From contig CAOJUB010000001.1 of NCBI GenBank assembly GCA_948443805.1, positions 62,001 to 126,000 on the forward strand: a stretch of DNA of 64,000 bases, written 5' to 3'. This DNA is from an uncultured Clostridia bacterium. GTDB lineage: Bacteria > Bacillota > Clostridia > Oscillospirales > UBA644. Below, in pieces: positions 21,263 through 35,092 of the stretch. The first letter of the stretch is position 1, and every line of letters begins with the position of its first letter. The notes below the pieces were generated by a model. It was given only the letters and a program-made list of their open reading frames with translations, did no database searches and had not been told where the DNA came from. The position numbers were made by a program, and so were the translations under genes.

Positions 21263-23035
21263 ATGATGAAAAAAATAACGGCGTTGTTTCTTTTGATTGG
21301 CATGTTGCTTTCTTTTGCGGCAGGATGCAAAGAATATATCCCCCCTGAATCGGAGATCCGGGAATATGATCCGGACGCGAAACGGGAATGCGTGGAGTAC
21401 CGGGACGAGGGAATTTACGGCTTTGGCGTTTACAGAGATGGAACGGCGGTGATTACTTTCGTAAACGCTTCGGGGGATATTGAGATTCCCTCTTCGGTCG
21501 GCGGATATCCGGTAACGGCGCTCCGGGAAGATTTGTTTTCCGAACGGTCGGATATCACTTCCGTAACGATTCCGGAATCGGTGACGGAGATCGGCGACTA
21601 TGCTTTTTACGGCTGTTCTTCTTTGAATACGGTTACGCTTCCGGCTACAGTTTCGGAAATCGGAACCGGCGCTTTCAATAAAACGCCCTGGCTGGAAAAC
21701 AGCACGGAAACGTTTTTGATTGTCGGCGACGGGATTCTTTTGCGCTATCAGCCGGGTGACGAGACTGGAAAGCCTGCGGTCGAGGTTCCGGAAGGGGTCA
21801 AGAAAATCGGCGCGTACGCTTTTTATTCGACTCCGGTTTCATCGGTCCGGATTCCGGAAGGCGTTACTTCGATCGGCGCTTACTCGTTTCATCATTGCGA
21901 ATATCTGACCACGGTTGCCATTCCTTCCACGGTGACCGAACTCGGTATGGGGGCTTTCAGTAACTGCGGCGCGTTGACGAGGGCGGAAATCCCGGAAGGG
22001 GTCGAGGTTCTGCCGGATGCGGTATTCTCGGAATGTTATTCGCTGTCTTCGGTAAATATCCCGAAAAATACGTATTATATCGGGGATTCTGCTTTTTATG
22101 CCTGCTATCTGGTTTCCGAACTGACGATTCCGAAAACGGTGACGGAGATCGGCTTCGAGGCCTTTACCGATACGGCGTGGGAAAAGAACCTGACCGGGGA
22201 ATTTGTCGTTGTCGGGTATGGGATTTTACTGAAATACAACGGAAATCAGGAAACGGTTCGGATTCCGAAAAAAGTGCTGGAAATTTCGTATGCCTTTAAA
22301 GATAATGACACGGTGAAATATATTCATTTCAGTGAGAATATCCGTCAGATCGGCAAAGGAGCGTTTTATAACTGCAAAAAACTTCTGTCTGTTGAAATAC
22401 CAAATACTGTTAAAAAACTGGGCGCAATGGCATTTTTCGGTTGTGAGAGCTTGAATTCGGCAGTCTTGCCGGAAGAACTTTCCGAGATCGGTTTTGCTGC
22501 CTTTTCCGGATGCAAAAGTTTGGTTTCGGTTAATTTTCCTGACGGGCTTGCGGAAATACCGTCTTCTTGTTTTAAAGAGACTTCGATTTCGGAATTCACC
22601 TTTTCTCCCAATGTCCGGGTGATCGGCAGCAGTGCTTTTGAGGGATGTGAGAAAATCACCTCGCTGACAGTGCCGGAAACGGTAACCGAAATCGGCGACG
22701 ATGCTTTTCATAAATGTACATCACTGGAAACGATTGAGCTTTCCGCGAAAATAGACCGGATCGGGTTGGGGGTATTTCAGTCCTGTACTTCGCTGAAAAC
22801 AATAGTGATTCCCGAGGGGGTTCAGCGGCTGCACCTTGCTTCGTTTTGGAACTGTACTGCTTTGGAACGGATTGTCCTTCCTGCTTCTCTTTCGGAAATT
22901 GGCGCTTACGCTTTTGAGAAATGCGAGAATCTGCAAACGATTTGTTTTGCCGGTACGCAGCCGCAGTGGGAGGCCGTTGCCGTGAACGACAGCAACGATC
23001 TTTCTTCGGTTTCGGTTGTTTATGACTATCGTTAA
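21263..23035 (+). CDS. surface lipoprotein with LRR_5 (BspA-type) leucine-rich repeats
   Basis: 590 residues. The N-terminus is a lipoprotein signal with the lipobox FAAGC, so the protein is expected on the outer face of the membrane. From about residue 75 to the end it consists of BspA-like LRR_5 units of 22-23 residues (pattern SVTIPESVTEIGDYAFYGCS). No dockerin or other anchor follows. Such proteins usually bind host, microbial or polymer surfaces, but the ligand cannot be read from sequence. It lies 38 bases after the FAD oxidoreductase gene and is followed by a very strong terminator. Confidence 0.88.
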   Translation: MMKKITALFLLIGMLLSFAAGCKEYIPPESEIREYDPDAKRECVEYRDEGIYGFGVYRDGTAVITFVNASGDIEIPSSVGGYPVTALREDLFSERSDITSVTIPESVTEIGDYAFYGCSSLNTVTLPATVSEIGTGAFNKTPWLENSTETFLIVGDGILLRYQPGDETGKPAVEVPEGVKKIGAYAFYSTPVSSVRIPEGVTSIGAYSFHHCEYLTTVAIPSTVTELGMGAFSNCGALTRAEIPEGVEVLPDAVFSECYSLSSVNIPKNTYYIGDSAFYACYLVSELTIPKTVTEIGFEAFTDTAWEKNLTGEFVVVGYGILLKYNGNQETVRIPKKVLEISYAFKDNDTVKYIHFSENIRQIGKGAFYNCKKLLSVEIPNTVKKLGAMAFFGCESLNSAVLPEELSEIGFAAFSGCKSLVSVNFPDGLAEIPSSCFKETSISEFTFSPNVRVIGSSAFEGCEKITSLTVPETVTEIGDDAFHKCTSLETIELSAKIDRIGLGVFQSCTSLKTIVIPEGVQRLHLASFWNCTALERIVLPASLSEIGAYAFEKCENLQTICFAGTQPQWEAVAVNDSNDLSSVSVVYDYR

Positions 23036-23263: not shown

Positions 23264-23292
23264 TTTACAAGGGCGAAAAAATGTGGTATAAT
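23264..23292 (+). promoter_or_regulatory. consensus promoter leading into the structured repeat
   Basis: TTTACA and TATAAT with a 17-base spacer and TG one base before the -10 box. The surrounding 35 bases closely resemble the metK promoter at 57629 (shared GGGAAATATTTACAAG-type core). Confidence 0.7.
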
Positions 23293-23445
23293 ATATGCAG
23301 GAAATCATTGTTTCGCTATGATTTAGCGGCGCTGCCGCATCATGCTACGCATGACCTGTATTATTGACGGCCTCGCAAAAATGTTCTTGCAAGCAAACAT
23401 TTTTGCTTCATGGTATAATAAAGAACAGTAAACTGTTCTTTATCG
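23287..23445 (+). repeat. dispersed structured repeat, plus-strand copy
   Basis: Modules in order: TATAAT; an outer stem (CAGG with CCTG) enclosing three hairpin arms (AAATCAT..ATGATTT, GCGGC..GCCGC, TCATGC..GCATGA); the linker TTGACGGCCTCGC; an 11-bp hairpin (GCAAAAATGTT with AACATTTTTGC); then CATGGTATAATAAAGAACAG-TAAA-CTGTTCTT. The same modules occur in the same order on the minus strand at 31.3-31.7 kb. The element ends about 20 bases before the Nudix start codon. Confidence 0.8.
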
Positions 23446-23466: not shown

Positions 23467-23889
23467 ATGGTTCGTTTTTATGATGCAGTAGAAGATTCTT
23501 TGTTAAAATTTGCTGTGATTGTCGCGAAATATCGGGGACAATATGTTTATTGCAAACACCGGAGACGGAATACCTGGGAAATCCCGGGCGGGCATCGGGA
23601 GCCCGGAGAGACGATCGAACAAGCGGCGCGGCGGGAATTGGCAGAGGAAACCGGCGCTGTTTTGTATTCCCTGGTTCCTGTTTGCGTGTATTCTGTTTCC
23701 GCTCCGGATTCGGATCTTTGTCCGGAAACTTTCGGCGCGTTGTATTTTGCGGAAATTGAACGTTTCGACGGGACGCTTCATTGTGAAATTGAAAAAATTA
23801 TGTTCTGCGACCGTCTTCCCGAAACGCTGACGTATCCGGAGATTCAGCCTTTTCTTCTGCGGGAGGTTGAACGAAGACTTTTTTCGTGA
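23467..23889 (+). CDS. Nudix hydrolase
   Basis: 140-residue Nudix fold protein. The Nudix box is complete: [20 protein letters not shown] followed by ETG. It hydrolyses a nucleoside diphosphate linked to another group; the substrate (8-oxo-dGTP, dATP, or a sugar nucleotide) cannot be told from the box. The ATG at 23467 follows GTGAGGGG. The transcript probably starts within the repeat just upstream and would begin with the GAACAG-CTGTTC hairpin. The ATP synthase genes begin 94 bases later in the same direction. Confidence 0.9.
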
Positions 23890-24397: not shown

Positions 24398-25598
<1,201 letters not shown>

Positions 25599-25613
25599 AG
25601 GAGACGACTTTTT

Positions 25614-26129
25614 ATGCAAAATCTGGACGTCATATCAATCAATTTATGGCAGATTTTGATTTCTTTATGCAATCTGTTTCTTTTGTTTTTGATTTTGAAA
25701 AAATTCCTGTATAAACCGGTGAAAAAAATGATGGCGCAGCGGCAGGCAGCACTGGATGAACAATATGAGAAAGCGGCCGAAAGCGAACGCGCTGCCGAAA
25801 TGGACCGCAAAGCCTGGGCGGAAAAAATACAGGGGGCGAAGGCGGAAGCCGACCGCCTGGTTAAAACGGCGGAAGCACGCGCCGACCGGCGTTCCGAGCA
25901 GATTGTGGCCAAGGCGAAAGATGAGGCGGACGGAATTCTCCGTGACGCACAGAGCCAGGCAGTTCTGGAAAAGAAAAAGGCCAAGGCCGAGATCAAACGG
26001 GAAATTGTTGACGTTTCTGCTGCGCTGACCGAAAAAATTCTGCGACGCGAGATTTCGGAAGACGACCATCGGGCAATTTTGGATTCAGTCTTGTCGGAAA
26101 TAGGTGAAGAAAATGACGGATATCAGTAA
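25614..26129 (+). CDS. atpF: ATP synthase Fo subunit b
   Basis: 171 residues: one N-terminal membrane helix (LWQILISLCNLFLLFLILKKF) followed by a long charged coiled coil rich in Ala, Glu and Lys, as expected for the peripheral stalk. Its end overlaps the start of atpH by 17 bases, so the two are translationally coupled. Confidence 0.95.
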   Translation: MQNLDVISINLWQILISLCNLFLLFLILKKFLYKPVKKMMAQRQAALDEQYEKAAESERAAEMDRKAWAEKIQGAKAEADRLVKTAEARADRRSEQIVAKAKDEADGILRDAQSQAVLEKKKAKAEIKREIVDVSAALTEKILRREISEDDHRAILDSVLSEIGEENDGYQ

Positions 26130-26643
26130 GGAATATGCGTCGGCGTTATTTGAACTGGCACGGGAAATTTCCGCTGAAAAAGAGTTTCTTGAGGCGCTGT
26201 TTCTGATTCAGGCCGCGCTGAAGGAACAGCCGGAATATGTTTCGGTTCTTTCTTCCCCGAATCTTTCGGTGCGGGAAAAAAAATCGTTATTGGAAAAAGC
26301 TTTTGCCTCGTTTGTTCCGGAACCGGTTCTTTCTTTTGCCGAACTGCTTTGTGAAAAAGGGCATATGTCTTGTTTTCATGATTGTGTGAAGGAGTATCAG
26401 GCGCTTTACCAAACATTTTGTTCGGTGTCTTCGGCCAGGGTTGTCAGCGCGGTCGCGCTGACGGAGGAGGAAAAAAGACGTTTGACGGAGAAACTGGAAA
26501 AAATCAGCGGCCATCGGGTGCAGACGCATTATGAAACCGATGAAGCGATTCTAGGCGGCCTGATTGTTTATATGGACGATACGGTTATCGACGGCAGTCT
26601 TCGCCGGCAATTAAAAGACGTAAGGGATGTGATCGGAACATGA
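26113..26643 (+). CDS. atpH: ATP synthase F1 subunit delta
   Basis: 176 residues, OSCP/delta family, joining the peripheral stalk to the top of F1. The opening ([14 protein letters not shown]) and the C-terminal [21 protein letters not shown] segment are typical. ATG 26113, with AGGTGA five bases upstream, is preferred over the GTG at 26104. Its stop overlaps the atpA start as ATGA. Confidence 0.94.
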
Positions 26644-28130
26644 GTACGAATGCGGAAGAGATCAGCAGTATCATAAAAGAACAGATCCGCGCCTATCGTT
26701 CCCGGGCGCAGATGACCGAGACCGGCACGGTGATTCTTGTCGGCGACGGAATTGCCCGGGTGTACGGCCTTCGGAACTGTATGGCCAGCGAACTTCTGGA
26801 GTTTGAGGACGGCAGTTTCGGTATGGCGCAGAATTTGGAGGATGAGACCGTTTCCGTCGCGGTCCTCTCGGACCGGAACGATATCCGGGAAGGTTCTCAG
26901 GTAAAGCGTACCGGAAAGGTTCTTTCCGTACCGGTCGGTGAAGCGCTTCTCGGCCGGGTTGTGAACGCCCTGGGGGTTCCGATCGACGGAAAAGGCCCTG
27001 CCGACTGCAAACAGACCCGGCCTGTTGAATCGGAAGCACCGGGAATTATTGAGCGGCAGAGTGTTTCGGTGCCTCTGCAGACGGGAATTAAGGCGATTGA
27101 CGGCATGATCCCGATCGGAAGGGGACAGCGGGAACTGATTATCGGCGACCGCCAGACCGGTAAAACCGAAATCGCCGTGGATACGATTATCAATCAGAAA
27201 AATACCGGCGTTTTGTGTATTTATGTTGCTATCGGCCAGAAAAGCACTTCTGTGGTGCAGCTGGCAAACGAACTTTCCCGCGCGGGCGCCATGGCTTACA
27301 CGATTATTGTTTCTGCCTCTGCTTCGGAAAGCGCGCCGTTGCAGTATATTGCCCCGTATGCGGGCTGCGCGATGGCGGAGTATTTCCGCGAACAGGGAAA
27401 AGACGTTTTGATTATTTACGACGATTTGTCCAAACACGCGGTAGCCTACCGCGCGCTGTCGTTGCTGATCCGTCGTCCTCCCGGCCGTGAAGCCTATCCC
27501 GGCGACGTCTTTTATCTGCATTCCCGCTTATTGGAACGCGCGGCCTGCGTTGCCCCGGAATACGGCGGCGGGTCAATCACGGCGCTTCCGATTATCGAGA
27601 CGCAGGCGGGGGATGTTTCGGCTTATATTCCAACCAATGTGATTTCGATTACCGACGGTCAGATTTTTTTGGAGACCGAACTGTTCCATGCCGGGATCAT
27701 GCCGGCGATCAACCCCGGAATTTCGGTCAGCCGTGTCGGCGGGTCGGCGCAGCTGAAACCGATGAAAAAAGTTTCGGGGGAATTGAAACTTCTTTATTCG
27801 CAGTATCGTGAACTGCAGTCTTTCGCGCAGTTCGGCAGCGATCTCGACGCCGACACCAAAGCGCGGCTTGCTCTGGGCGAACGAATTGTGGAAGTGCTGA
27901 AACAGAAACGGAATGCGCCGGTTTCGGTCGGTTGCCAGGTTGCCATTCTTTATGCGGTAATTCACGGGTATTTGGACAAAGTTCCGGTTGATAAAGTATC
28001 GGATTATGAACAGCGGCTTTATGATAAAATGCAGACCGAACACCACAGTTTGCTAGAACGTTTTGAAGCCGGTTATTTTGAGGAAAGCGACGAGACTGCT
28101 TTGAAACAGGCGCTCGAAGAAATGGAGTGA
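26640..28130 (+). CDS. atpA: ATP synthase F1 subunit alpha
   Basis: 496-residue non-catalytic nucleotide-binding subunit. Walker A is GDRQTGKTE, followed by the family signature around [14 protein letters not shown]. All three domains are present and the length is normal. Located between atpH (4-base overlap) and atpG (4 bases). Confidence 0.98.
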
Positions 28131-28134
28131 TTGG

Positions 28135-30604
<2,470 letters not shown>

Positions 30605-30747: not shown

Positions 30748-31104
30748 TTATTTTACTTTTATATACTGATTTCCGCAGGCTTTGCAGGTGATTTTCATTT
30801 CATAGTGATCTATTTTTTTGTCCAATAAAGTAATGAGCGGCTCATTGTCTTTTGGACAGCATAATCTGTTTTTTACAAGAATCAATTCTTCGGTGCTGTT
30901 TTTTCCCGGTTTGCTGTCTTCAAAATCGAGTAACGCGCTGCCGTGGCTGCCGCAATGGCATTGATAGTTCAGTTCGAGTCTGTCATACGTGGAATAACAC
31001 AAATAACCGATATTTTCATTGCACGTATCGCAGTACATCCATCCGCCATAATTTGTTGCCAGTCTTGTATTTACCAGTTCTTTATTTTTTACGGTTCTTG
31101 CCAT
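30748..31104 (-). CDS. zinc-ribbon protein, unknown function
   Basis: 118 residues. I do not recognise a named family. Cysteine pairs suggest two zinc-binding knuckle sets: MYCDTCNENIGYLC and YQCHCGSHG in the first half, LCCPKDN and ITCKACGNQY in the second. It is basic at both ends, small and without membrane segments, so a nucleic-acid or protein binding role is plausible but unproven. ATG 31104, with AAAGGAAG upstream, is preferred to the track start at 31155, which has no ribosome binding site. The palindromic repeat array lies upstream in the same orientation. Confidence 0.75.
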   Translation of the reverse strand: MARTVKNKELVNTRLATNYGGWMYCDTCNENIGYLCYSTYDRLELNYQCHCGSHGSALLDFEDSKPGKNSTEELILVKNRLCCPKDNEPLITLLDKKIDHYEMKITCKACGNQYIKVK

Positions 31105-31261
31105 GGATTGTCTTCCTTTCTTCAATGGAATCGGGTTGTTTTCCAGCAGGGACATTTTTGCGGTGTGATTTTATATTGCAGCCGTGCTCTGTGCGGAGCG
31201 GCAAGGTCGCAAAGTTGTGCCATACAGGATTTTTCTATACATGCCATGCTGTGCGTTTTTT

Positions 31262-31665
31262 TTAGAACAACTTGTTGTTTTGATAAAACTGTGAATTTTG
31301 CACCGGAAAAAAAGAGGTTATCCGGAACGGAATTTCAACCGAATGGTTGAAACGCTTTTTTCCTAAGAACAGCTTGCTGTTCTTTAGAACAAGCTTGCTG
31401 TTCTTTATTGTACCATGGAGAAAAAATGCTTGCTTGCATGCAAATACTATTTGCATTGGCATTCTTTGCGAGACCGTCAATAGACACAACTGTGCGAAGC
31501 ACAGAGCGGCAACGCCGCTAAATCAATGCAAAGCAATGATTTATGTGTCTATTATACCATGAATTTCGCACCGGAAAAACACCGGCGGCGCAACGCGCTG
31601 TTCGGCTGGATAGCCGAAAGATTTTTTTCCTAAGAACAGTTTACTGTTCTTTATTATACCATATT
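31262..31665 (-). repeat. dispersed structured repeat array, minus-strand copy
   Basis: Read on the minus strand: ATGGTATAATAAAGAACAG-TAAA-CTGTTCTT, AGGAAAAAA, hairpin TTCGGCT..AGCCGAA, a TTTTTCCGGTGCGAAATTCA box, GGTATAAT, the cloverleaf module (31479-31553), linker TTGACGGTCTCGC, a long hairpin with inner stem ATGCAAAT..ATTTGCAT, CATGGTACAATAAAGAACAG with two GAACAG/CTGTTC hairpins, AGGAAAAAA, hairpin TTTCAACC..GGTTGAAA, and a second TTTTTTCCGGTGCAAAATTCA box. The first and last halves are therefore related copies flanking the cloverleaf. Confidence 0.8.
31479..31553 (-). repeat. cloverleaf module within the array
   Basis: An outer perfect 10-bp stem (AATAGACACA with TGTGTCTATT) encloses three perfect or near-perfect hairpins: CTGTGC-GAA-GCACAG, AGCGGC-AAC-GCCGCT, and AAATCA..TGATTT. 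It is a four-way junction of 75 bases on either strand. Two of the arms and the outer stem differ from the copy at 23287 but stay paired. Confidence 0.85.
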
Positions 31666-31757
31666 TTTTCTCGCTTGTAAATATTTCCGGGGAAATGATC
31701 TTTCCTTGTTTTTCGTCTGAATTTTTCGACATTTTTCTGAATTTGTTTTTTCCCCTC

Positions 31758-33268: not shown

Positions 33269-35092
33269 ATGCATCATTCATCCTGTCAATCCGGAAATAA
33301 AAGTTCAGAAGGCCTGAAACCAAAGAGCTTCCGGCCAAAACGCCGGCATTCTTTTTTTGCGCTTCTGCTGGCTGCGGTGCTGTTCGTCGGGCTTCTGCCG
33401 ACGGTTTCGCTGCCGATCACGGCGGCTTCTCCGGCGGCGGATTTCGAGTTTGACGAATCGATCGGCATGATTACAAAATATACCGGTTCAGCAACCAATG
33501 TTGTGATCCCGGAAACAATCAACGGGGTGACGGTTACGGCGATCGGTATGGAGGCTTTTGCCGGCTGTTCTTGGCTGACCAGCGTTTCGATTCCGAACAG
33601 TGTTGTGACAATTGGCGGTGCGACTTTTTCTGGTTGTTCTTCGCTGACCAGCGTTGCTATTCCGGACAGCGTGACGGCAATCGGTGTGGCGGCTTTTGCC
33701 GGCTGTTCCTCGCTGACCAGCGTGACGATTCCGGAACATGTGACGGAAATTCGATATGCGGCTTTTAGCCGCTGTTCTTCTTTAGTGGAGATTCGGGTGG
33801 CGGAAAACAATCCGGCGTATTGTTCTGTCGACGGCGTTTTGTTTTCGAAGGATCAGAAAATGATTTGTAGCTATCCGGCAGGACGTTCGCAAAAAAACTA
33901 TGCGATTCCGGCTGGTGTGTCGGACATCTGCTATGAGGCTTTTGCCGGTTGTTCCGCGCTGACAAGCATTACGATTCCGGAAGGTGTGACAGGAATCGAA
34001 TATCAGGCTTTTGCCGGCTGTTTGTCCTTGACAAGCGTAACCATTCCGGAAAGTGTGACGGCAATTGGCGGCGGGGTTTTTTATTCCTGTTCTTCGTTAT
34101 CAGAGATTCGGGTAGCGGAAAATAATCCGGCGTATTGCTCTGTTGACGGCGTTCTGTTTTCGAAGGATCAGAAAACGATTTACACCTACCCGGCTGGACG
34201 TTCCGAAAAAAACTATGTGATTCCGAACTCTGTGCAATACATAGCCGCTTGGGCTTTTCAGGGCTGTTCCTCGCTGACCGGTGTGACAATTCCGAATGGT
34301 GTAGCCGAGATCGGCAATGGGGTTTTTTCCGACTGTTCTTCGTTAGCAGAGATTCGGGTCGAGGAAAGCAATCCGGCATATTGTTCTGTCGGCGGCGTTC
34401 TGTTTTCGAAGGATCAGACAACAATTTACAGCTATCCGGCCGGCCGTACCTCAAAAAGTTATACGATTCCAGACAGTGTGCAATATATCGCCGCTTTTGC
34501 TTTTCAGGGGTGTTCTTCGCTGACCAGTTTGACGATTCCGGTTCGTGTGAAAAATATCGGCTATAAAGCTTTTTCTCAGTGTTCTTCGCTGACCAGTTTG
34601 ACGATTCCGGACGATGTGCAGTCTGTTGCTGATCTGGCTTTTTCCGGCTGTGACGCCCTGTCAAGCTTGCATGTCCAGGACAGCGAGGGGCGGATTCTTC
34701 TTTCCTTCTTGGTATCGATGAATAATCTTTTCTTTCCGGGGACAGGGGAGAAAGAGACGGATATTCAAATCCTTTATTCCGGTACCAGGGAAGCATGGAA
34801 TTCGATTCCTATTGGGTACGGTTATCTTCGGGATTATTTAACCGCAAGAGTCGTTTTTATTTCTTCTGAGGTTTTTATCTGGGGCGATGTGGACGGAAAC
34901 GGCAAAGTAGAAACGAAGGACAAGGTTTTGATTTCCCGGTATCTGGCAAAATGGACGATGAACGGCGGTTTCAATCAGGCAGCGGCCGATTTCAATAAAG
35001 ACGGCGACGTTACCTCGGCCGAAGCGGTTGTTTTAGCGCGCTATCTGGCCAAATGGACCAATCTGCCGTATCCGGTTGGACAGCTGGCATAA
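33269..35092 (+). CDS. secreted LRR_5 (BspA-type) protein with C-terminal dockerin
   Basis: 607 residues. A basic N-terminus (FRPKRRH) and one hydrophobic segment (FFALLLAAVLFVGLLP) form a signal peptide. Residues about 50-480 are LRR_5 repeats of the pattern SVTIPESVTAIG..F..CSSL. Three longer units contain the same insertion, roughly NPAYCSVDGVLFSKDQ then a TIYSYPAGR-like segment. The end has two calcium loops of a dockerin, DVDGNGKVETKD and DFNKDGDVTSAE, each followed by the helix LISRYLAKW or LARYLAKW. A surface-binding module delivered to a cohesin scaffold is the likely role. ATG 33269 has AAGGAGA upstream. Confidence 0.88.
   Translation: MHHSSCQSGNKSSEGLKPKSFRPKRRHSFFALLLAAVLFVGLLPTVSLPITAASPAADFEFDESIGMITKYTGSATNVVIPETINGVTVTAIGMEAFAGCSWLTSVSIPNSVVTIGGATFSGCSSLTSVAIPDSVTAIGVAAFAGCSSLTSVTIPEHVTEIRYAAFSRCSSLVEIRVAENNPAYCSVDGVLFSKDQKMICSYPAGRSQKNYAIPAGVSDICYEAFAGCSALTSITIPEGVTGIEYQAFAGCLSLTSVTIPESVTAIGGGVFYSCSSLSEIRVAENNPAYCSVDGVLFSKDQKTIYTYPAGRSEKNYVIPNSVQYIAAWAFQGCSSLTGVTIPNGVAEIGNGVFSDCSSLAEIRVEESNPAYCSVGGVLFSKDQTTIYSYPAGRTSKSYTIPDSVQYIAAFAFQGCSSLTSLTIPVRVKNIGYKAFSQCSSLTSLTIPDDVQSVADLAFSGCDALSSLHVQDSEGRILLSFLVSMNNLFFPGTGEKETDIQILYSGTREAWNSIPIGYGYLRDYLTARVVFISSEVFIWGDVDGNGKVETKDKVLISRYLAKWTMNGGFNQAAADFNKDGDVTSAEAVVLARYLAKWTNLPYPVGQLA

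Follow-up and report, generated by a model that had tools for sequence, protein, structure and literature searches.

The attC ends of integron cassettes are palindromes of single-stranded DNA (ssDNA) that vary in sequence and conserve structure. They are recognized by their shape, have the core GTTRRRY and can lie in arrays that share core sites. Bridge-RNA elements of the IS110/IS1111 type insert at a specific target matched by their own end, lack inverted termini and can insert in tandem. IS200/IS605 ends and the derived REP/REPIN sequences are short, strand-oriented intergenic palindromes that have no terminal inverted repeats and insert 3' of a tetranucleotide (PMC6006769). Correia/NEMIS elements of Neisseria and related miniature inverted-repeat transposable elements are about 100-155 bp long, encode no protein, lie in intergenic DNA upstream of genes with promoter sequences at their ends, and are bounded by terminal inverted repeats, which measure 24 bp in Correia, and by duplications of a TA target (PMC2229807, PMC10969869). 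Here we describe an intergenic element built around a four-way junction, found in 64,000 nucleotides of an uncultured Clostridia bacterium of the Oscillospirales (contig CAOJUB010000001.1, positions 62,001 to 126,000; hereafter the window). This element is probably a non-autonomous, site-specific mobile DNA element that targets the -10 box of promoters.

Like IS200/IS605 and REP sequences, the element appears to repeat its target tetranucleotide at its right end and occurs in many copies without a protein. It differs from them in the compound four-way junction at its left end and in its target, an extended -10 box, and no Y1 transposase was found in its own genome or in the copy-rich relatives tested. 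The element has hairpins at both ends; neither a guide complementary to TATA nor a GT[AG]G foot was recognized by eye. It resembles Correia/NEMIS in size, intergenic position, promoter-bearing ends and lack of a protein; unlike them, it has an internal multi-arm cruciform, the target TGnTATAAT and no inverted termini above chance (its ends match at 7.2/16 positions on average, shuffled ends at 7.0). With attC it shares variable sequence, conserved structure and arrays with common core sites, whereas its core is TATA/AT, it has three arms, and no integrase or cassettes were seen, the integrase family not having been searched for. As in IS110/IS1111, its end matches the target, inverted termini are lacking and tandem insertions occur; unlike in that group, there is no DEDD transposase in its own genome or in most carriers tested, and the structure is not RNA-like.

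A four-way junction forms the left part of a larger unit

The original prediction, made from the window alone, described 31479-31553 as a 10-bp outer stem around three hairpins, and the computed fold is exactly that. As ssDNA this copy (copy 1) folds with z = -7.5 on either strand, with 0/200 shuffles folding as well, and a strong RNA fold is also predicted. Read on the minus strand, 31553-31479, it runs AATAGACACA-arm1-arm2-arm3-TGTGTCTATT. A second copy in the opposite orientation had been placed at 23287-23352. Its arrangement is kept and its stems are changed as described, but the end at 23352 cuts the outer stem, which closes at about 23366. Copy 2 folds as ssDNA into the same four-way junction with z = -4.0 on the plus strand and -3.4 on the other. 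The both-sided stem changes claimed between the two copies are present and preserve pairing, with the outer stems compared in a register shifted by one base (AATAGACACA/TGTGTCTATT versus AATA-TATGCAGG/CCTGTA-TATT). The prediction overlooked that the four-way junction makes up just the left two-thirds of something larger, a mobile unit with extended -10 boxes as its insertion sites. The parts of the two copies are as follows.

31479..31553, minus strand: four-way junction of copy 1, made up of the outer stem plus three arms closed by 3-nt loops; read in the direction leading away from its upstream -10 box
31409..31552, minus strand: whole element, copy 1, AT..cruciform..GACGG-long tail hairpin-CATGGTACA; boundaries set by analogy with empty sites in other genomes
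31418..31470, minus strand: the long type of tail hairpin, in copy 1, with ATGCAAATA..TATTTGCAT forming a further hairpin inside it
31551..31556, minus strand: -10 hexamer TATAAT on the left (upstream) side of copy 1, in extended form TGGTATAAT; an M2-type repeat (see below) has its right end here
31407..31412, minus strand: right (downstream) -10-like hexamer TACAAT of copy 1, within ATGGTACAAT
23291..23417, plus strand: whole element, copy 2, AT..cruciform..GACGG-tail-CATGGTATA
23290..23366, plus strand: four-way junction of copy 2
23264..23269, plus strand: -35 hexamer TTTACA of the native promoter that hosts the element; the left -10 of copy 2 follows 17 bp later
23287..23292, plus strand: left -10 hexamer TATAAT of copy 2
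23414..23419, plus strand: TATAAT (ATGGTATAAT), the right -10 hexamer of copy 2; the ATG of a NUDIX gene lies 47 bp downstream
23467..23889, plus strand: NUDIX-domain gene downstream of copy 2

The unit is 124-150 bp long, encodes no protein and spans the distance from one -10 hexamer to the next. With the junctions marked by carets and the outermost TATA and AT belonging to the host, its layout is TATA^AT-cruciform-GACGG-conserved hairpin-CATGGTATA^AT. The left part consists of TATA^AT, the outer stem, three arms with mostly 3-nt loops, and the returning outer stem, which ends in ATT. The right part, or tail, begins with GACGG (or GAATCAC) and continues as the hairpin GCAAAAATG-CC-CTTG-CAAG-CAAG-CATTTTTGC-TTCATGGTATA^; some copies, copy 1 among them, have a longer tail hairpin. 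Between families the tail is nearly invariant, while the arms are free in sequence yet paired. At a few loci (L058, L106 and L067/L111) we observed derivatives that have lost part of the three-arm cruciform by deletion and retain one hairpin, with TATAAT-like hexamers still on both sides. The breakpoint of these deletions lies in GCAAG, a sequence common to arm 1 and the tail.

Further copies are plentiful. DNA searches and a covariance model found 13 clear copies in the 1.81-Mb genome of the window itself, with near-identical copies dispersed at unrelated loci. When 84,980 species genomes were scanned for the conserved tail, 51 loci came up, all of them in Clostridia-type metagenome-assembled genomes from gut or rumen, whose names include Oscillospiraceae, Ruminococcus, Gemmiger, Pseudoflavonifractor, Neglectibacter and 'Clostridia bacterium'. 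Within the window's order the tail is patchily distributed (26/394 genomes), and a reversed control pattern gave zero hits. The phage and plasmid records searched held no match. A single copy (L269) lies on a viral-classed contig of IMG/VR, IMGVR_UViG_3300032167_006174, and has a perfect 10-bp outer stem, AATTGACACA/TGTGTCAATT. The prediction had named no known element of this shape. In line with this, an Rfam search of the window, the array around copy 1 (see below) and six related loci returned nothing at the gathering threshold and only chance-level hits below it, and we found no description of the element in the literature searched, a search that reached few subscription journals.

The unit is an insertion into extended -10 boxes

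The element is an insertion, because empty sites exist both in relatives and among paralogues. At locus L138 it is present in one genome (G385), while four relatives (G142, G450, G512 and G408) have an uninterrupted promoter. Locus L117 is filled in G338, and two paralogous copies of the locus within the same genome, 95-97% identical, are empty: the empty sequence is GTGCTATAATGATGG and the filled one GTGCTATA^ATACACG...CATGGTATA^ATGATGG. A further insertion (L121/L122) is filled in G325 and G289 and empty in G276 and G301; its right flank also holds an element-like start, and a decayed remnant may complicate this locus. Compared with L169 and L170, the right flanks of L121 and L122 repeat the element's left start TATAATGATTGCAGAAAACA, which is also found in the two 'empty' species and could be either the remnant of an older insertion or a duplication of ~20 bp. 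Insertions have exact ends and lie in unrelated promoters, sharing flanks no longer than about 6-12 bp.

Variation among 72 non-tandem sites points to a junction at or next to TATA^AT, since positions 5-6 are nearly fixed in the left hexamer, while in the right hexamer they vary in the manner of native -10 boxes. Native-like variation is also seen at the base that precedes the left hexamer. Some of these sites were collected with a pattern whose last letters are GGTATA, which accounts in part for the constancy of the right GGTATA; neither the variation at right positions 5-6 nor the constancy at left positions 5-6 is imposed by that choice. Where the native box deviates from TATAAT, the hexamers on the two sides are not alike, and no clear target duplication is seen. 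The TATA^AT pattern fits insertion 3' of a short repeated target, and a duplication of 4-6 bp is also compatible with it.

The target is the extended -10 box TGnTATA^AT, with TG preceding 63/72 left hexamers. A -35 hexamer with at least 4/6 matches lies 16-18 bp upstream at 48/72 sites, against 13.5% of shuffles, and the spacing is 17 bp in 39/48. We considered targeting of promoters through the RNA polymerase open complex and set it aside as not needed: in the same DNA, a -35 accompanies background TGnTATAAT sites at almost the same rate (84/150, 56%, versus 67% of element sites; p = 0.15), and so recognition of the extended -10 sequence suffices to explain the promoter location. An open reading frame (ORF) with a ribosome site follows within 300 bp at 48/64 sites, at a median distance of 61 bp, compared with 46% and a median of 130 for random positions. 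The downstream genes are diverse and unrelated, including, as judged from their sequences, NrdR, MinD, phosphoglycerate kinase, YbeY and response regulators, and the NUDIX gene in the window. After insertion each end carries a -10 box. The left one joins the native -35 and TATA to AT; the right one consists of TGGTATA and two native bases, an extended -10 that lacks a good -35. Hardly any sequence in a bacterial promoter is as constrained as the extended -10 box. Splitting it and restoring it on both sides would let the element live in the promoters of housekeeping genes and add promoters to them, and elements of this kind could rewire the control of genes and still leave it working.

The structure behaves as DNA

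That further copies should stay paired was borne out. Across 96 distinct copies 91.3% of cells pair, a percentage that leans upward in that the alignment is fitted to the structure, and both-side changes occur in 30/31 pairs. Cells changed on both sides number 687, against 185 +/- 11 in shuffles, a contrast far beyond such bias, and shifting the pair partners by one to three columns abolishes the signal. These counts come from covariance-model alignments, which favor the model structure, because alignment with MAFFT and RNAalifold gave no consensus structure for the element. Covariation was also examined in an earlier set of copies and in the seed of seven. The prediction had read compensatory change as selection on the structure; pairing is indeed kept by such change, massively and across families, but templated self-copying of palindromic DNA could also cause the covariation.

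The prediction had also left the structure as either RNA or extruded DNA. Selection on RNA pairing in the transcribed strand should spare G.U and remove A.C, the counterpart of G.U on the opposite strand. In 56 dereplicated copies (<85% identity), G.T and A.C mismatches are both rare, at 38:31 (p = 0.47), while 27 SAM riboswitches from the same order, our control, gave 58:8 (Fisher p = 2.5e-5 against the element counts). The covariance model favors G.U over A.C and its bias therefore acts against a DNA conclusion. The two strands of the element fold alike, with means of -32.5 and -34.0 kcal/mol, compared with -32.3 vs -27.7 for the riboswitches. In addition, the outer stem reaches into the -10 hexamer, whose AAT it includes, and covers the discriminator that directly follows; by standard promoter geometry, a transcript from the left promoter would lack these bases. 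Because the mismatches are strand-symmetric and the outer stem sits in the promoter, we conclude that the structure behaves as DNA rather than RNA. The element offers a clean case of covariation, normally taken as proof of a functional RNA, arising from DNA, and the strand-symmetry test (G.T against A.C) is applicable to other covarying intergenic motifs.

How the element may move

In the mechanism that we propose, a putative recombinase supplied in trans would recognize the conserved right end (GACGG..hairpin..CATGGTATA) together with the left-end cruciform, formed by single-stranded or extruded DNA, and this single-stranded or cruciform state would be the mobile form. Within a host promoter, the recombinase would join both ends into the extended -10 box, TGnTATA^AT. 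The left -10 would be rebuilt from the native TATA and the element's AT, and the right -10 from the element's own TGGTATA and the next two native bases. If both boxes are active, the host gene would keep its old promoter and gain a second -10 close to the normal start. Every insertion would regenerate the target, allowing more copies and other families to insert and build up arrays of promoters and palindromes such as 31168-31662. We tentatively suggest, as a possibility somewhat short of even, that these features define a mobile element of a class of its own. It would consist of nothing but a DNA four-way junction and one conserved hairpin, would be moved in trans by a recombinase, possibly a universal host enzyme, and would use the extended -10 box as attachment site and rebuild the promoter at both ends. 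If true, insertion into essential promoters would be tolerated and promoter arrays would accumulate.

Several points weigh against a mobile element of this kind. No mobilizing enzyme was found, and Y1, IS110 and IS630 transposases, each considered as a partner, were rejected as absent from the element's own genome. The Y1 HUH transposase (PF01797) has 0 matches there, and is absent in 12/26 carrier genomes, among them the copy-rich genomes G050, G266, G165, G385 and G194. The IS110 DEDD transposase (PF01548) exceeds the cut-off in just 2/12 carriers, and the TA-targeting IS630-type transposase (PF13358) is found in 0/12 carrier genomes, the window's own included. Nor was a larger autonomous relative seen: all tails with readable upstream sequence follow a cruciform, a remnant or a deletion, and four atypical tails have no transposase-like gene between their ends, as judged by reading ORFs only. 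The exact junction is deduced from variation, with a 4-6 bp target duplication compatible with the data; the empty sites come from other loci and genomes, none of them corresponding to the two window copies; and the activity of both -10 boxes is read from their sequence.

Two other explanations concern how pairing is maintained and which enzyme acts, and are compatible with a mobile element. Pairing could be kept by a mutational process, template switching or hairpin-primed repair that copies one arm onto the other, with the element mobile and the cruciform perhaps a by-product. Nearly all changes run from Watson-Crick to Watson-Crick on both sides (the 687 cells above), with very few one-sided intermediates and few wobble cells, and the mismatches are equal on both strands, a pattern that this process predicts as well as strong selection does. 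Yet correction would not preserve the number of arms, and many families share the same architecture, with three arms and 3-nt loops. That one- and two-arm deletion derivatives (L058, L106, L067) are a minority suggests that the full cruciform is favored, and we regard this process as somewhat unlikely. Alternatively, the element could be a single-strand element of the IS200/IS605 or REP/RAYT type, its hairpins recognized by a Y1 HUH transposase that inserts it 3' of a tetranucleotide matched by the element end. Insertion 3' of TATA by an element ending in TATA follows the logic described in PMC6006769, and the subterminal hairpins, orientation specificity and lack of terminal inverted repeats agree with it. 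We nevertheless consider such an assignment unlikely, given the genomes without Y1_Tnp listed above, a left end that is a 75-nt four-way junction and not a 20-65 nt hairpin, and the fact that no GTAG/GTGG hairpin foot was noticed.

The remaining explanations dispense with mobility or with DNA as the acting form. A structured 5' leader RNA, whether cis-regulatory or a small RNA, could be transcribed from the upstream promoter, its fold being selected to act on mRNA stability, attenuation or a partner in trans. The element follows immediately on a -10 box and in most cases lies a short way ahead of a gene (48/64 sites); this position, the strong RNA fold and a tail hairpin ending in a U-run like a weak terminator would all suit such a leader. 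It is rendered quite improbable by mismatches that do not prefer G.U over A.C (38:31, SAM control 58:8), a reverse strand that folds equally well, covarying outer-stem pairs in and just after the -10 hexamer and hence upstream of the expected start, unrelated downstream genes, and the lack of an Rfam match. Finally, ordinary homologous recombination or tandem duplication might spread promoter segments in which the palindromes are passive hitch-hikers. In its favor, there are tandem arrays sharing a TATAAT boundary, and a second copy, truncated, is found in some right flanks. Against this stand clean, exact-ended insertions into unrelated promoters with shared flanks of at most about 6-12 bp, and empty sites in relatives and paralogues, which together make spread without mobility very improbable.

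Arrays and a second repeat family

Each end of an insertion is again a target, and tandem arrays with shared hexamers occur accordingly (L062, L065, L080, L102 and L110). In the window, copy 1 lies in a mixed array, 31168-31662, sandwiched between repeats of a second family with the same boundaries; the array also holds a third, degenerate copy of the four-way junction. The features around copy 1 are as follows.

31653..31681, minus strand: outermost native promoter of the array, TTTACA-17 bp-TATAAT
31555..31654, minus strand: M2-type repeat (second family, same -10 boundaries), upstream of copy 1
31286..31408, minus strand: M3-type repeat (second family), downstream of copy 1
31168..31248, minus strand: four-way junction of a third copy, degenerate; it lies immediately ahead of the 135-aa ORF
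30748..31155, minus strand: 135-aa ORF that follows the promoter array; it has CxxC motifs and matches nothing in Pfam

The second family is unrelated in sequence to the element. Its members have the form AAAGAACAGCAAGCTGTTCTT-three-way junction-TTTTTCCGGTGCGAAATTCATGG and lie at the same -10 boxes (L244-L268). There are 25 copies in the window's own genome and one weak match among 19 family relatives. Variant hexamers are found on both sides of the repeat in L264 (TAGAAT) and L260 (TAAAAT), which suggests that this family, M2 and M3 included, makes a true target duplication.

Beyond the arrays, BspA-type leucine-rich-repeat-like genes at 21263-23035 and 33269-35092 flank the ATP synthase operon (24398-30604); the BspA-type appearance of the first is confirmed by Pfam and that of the second was judged from its sequence.
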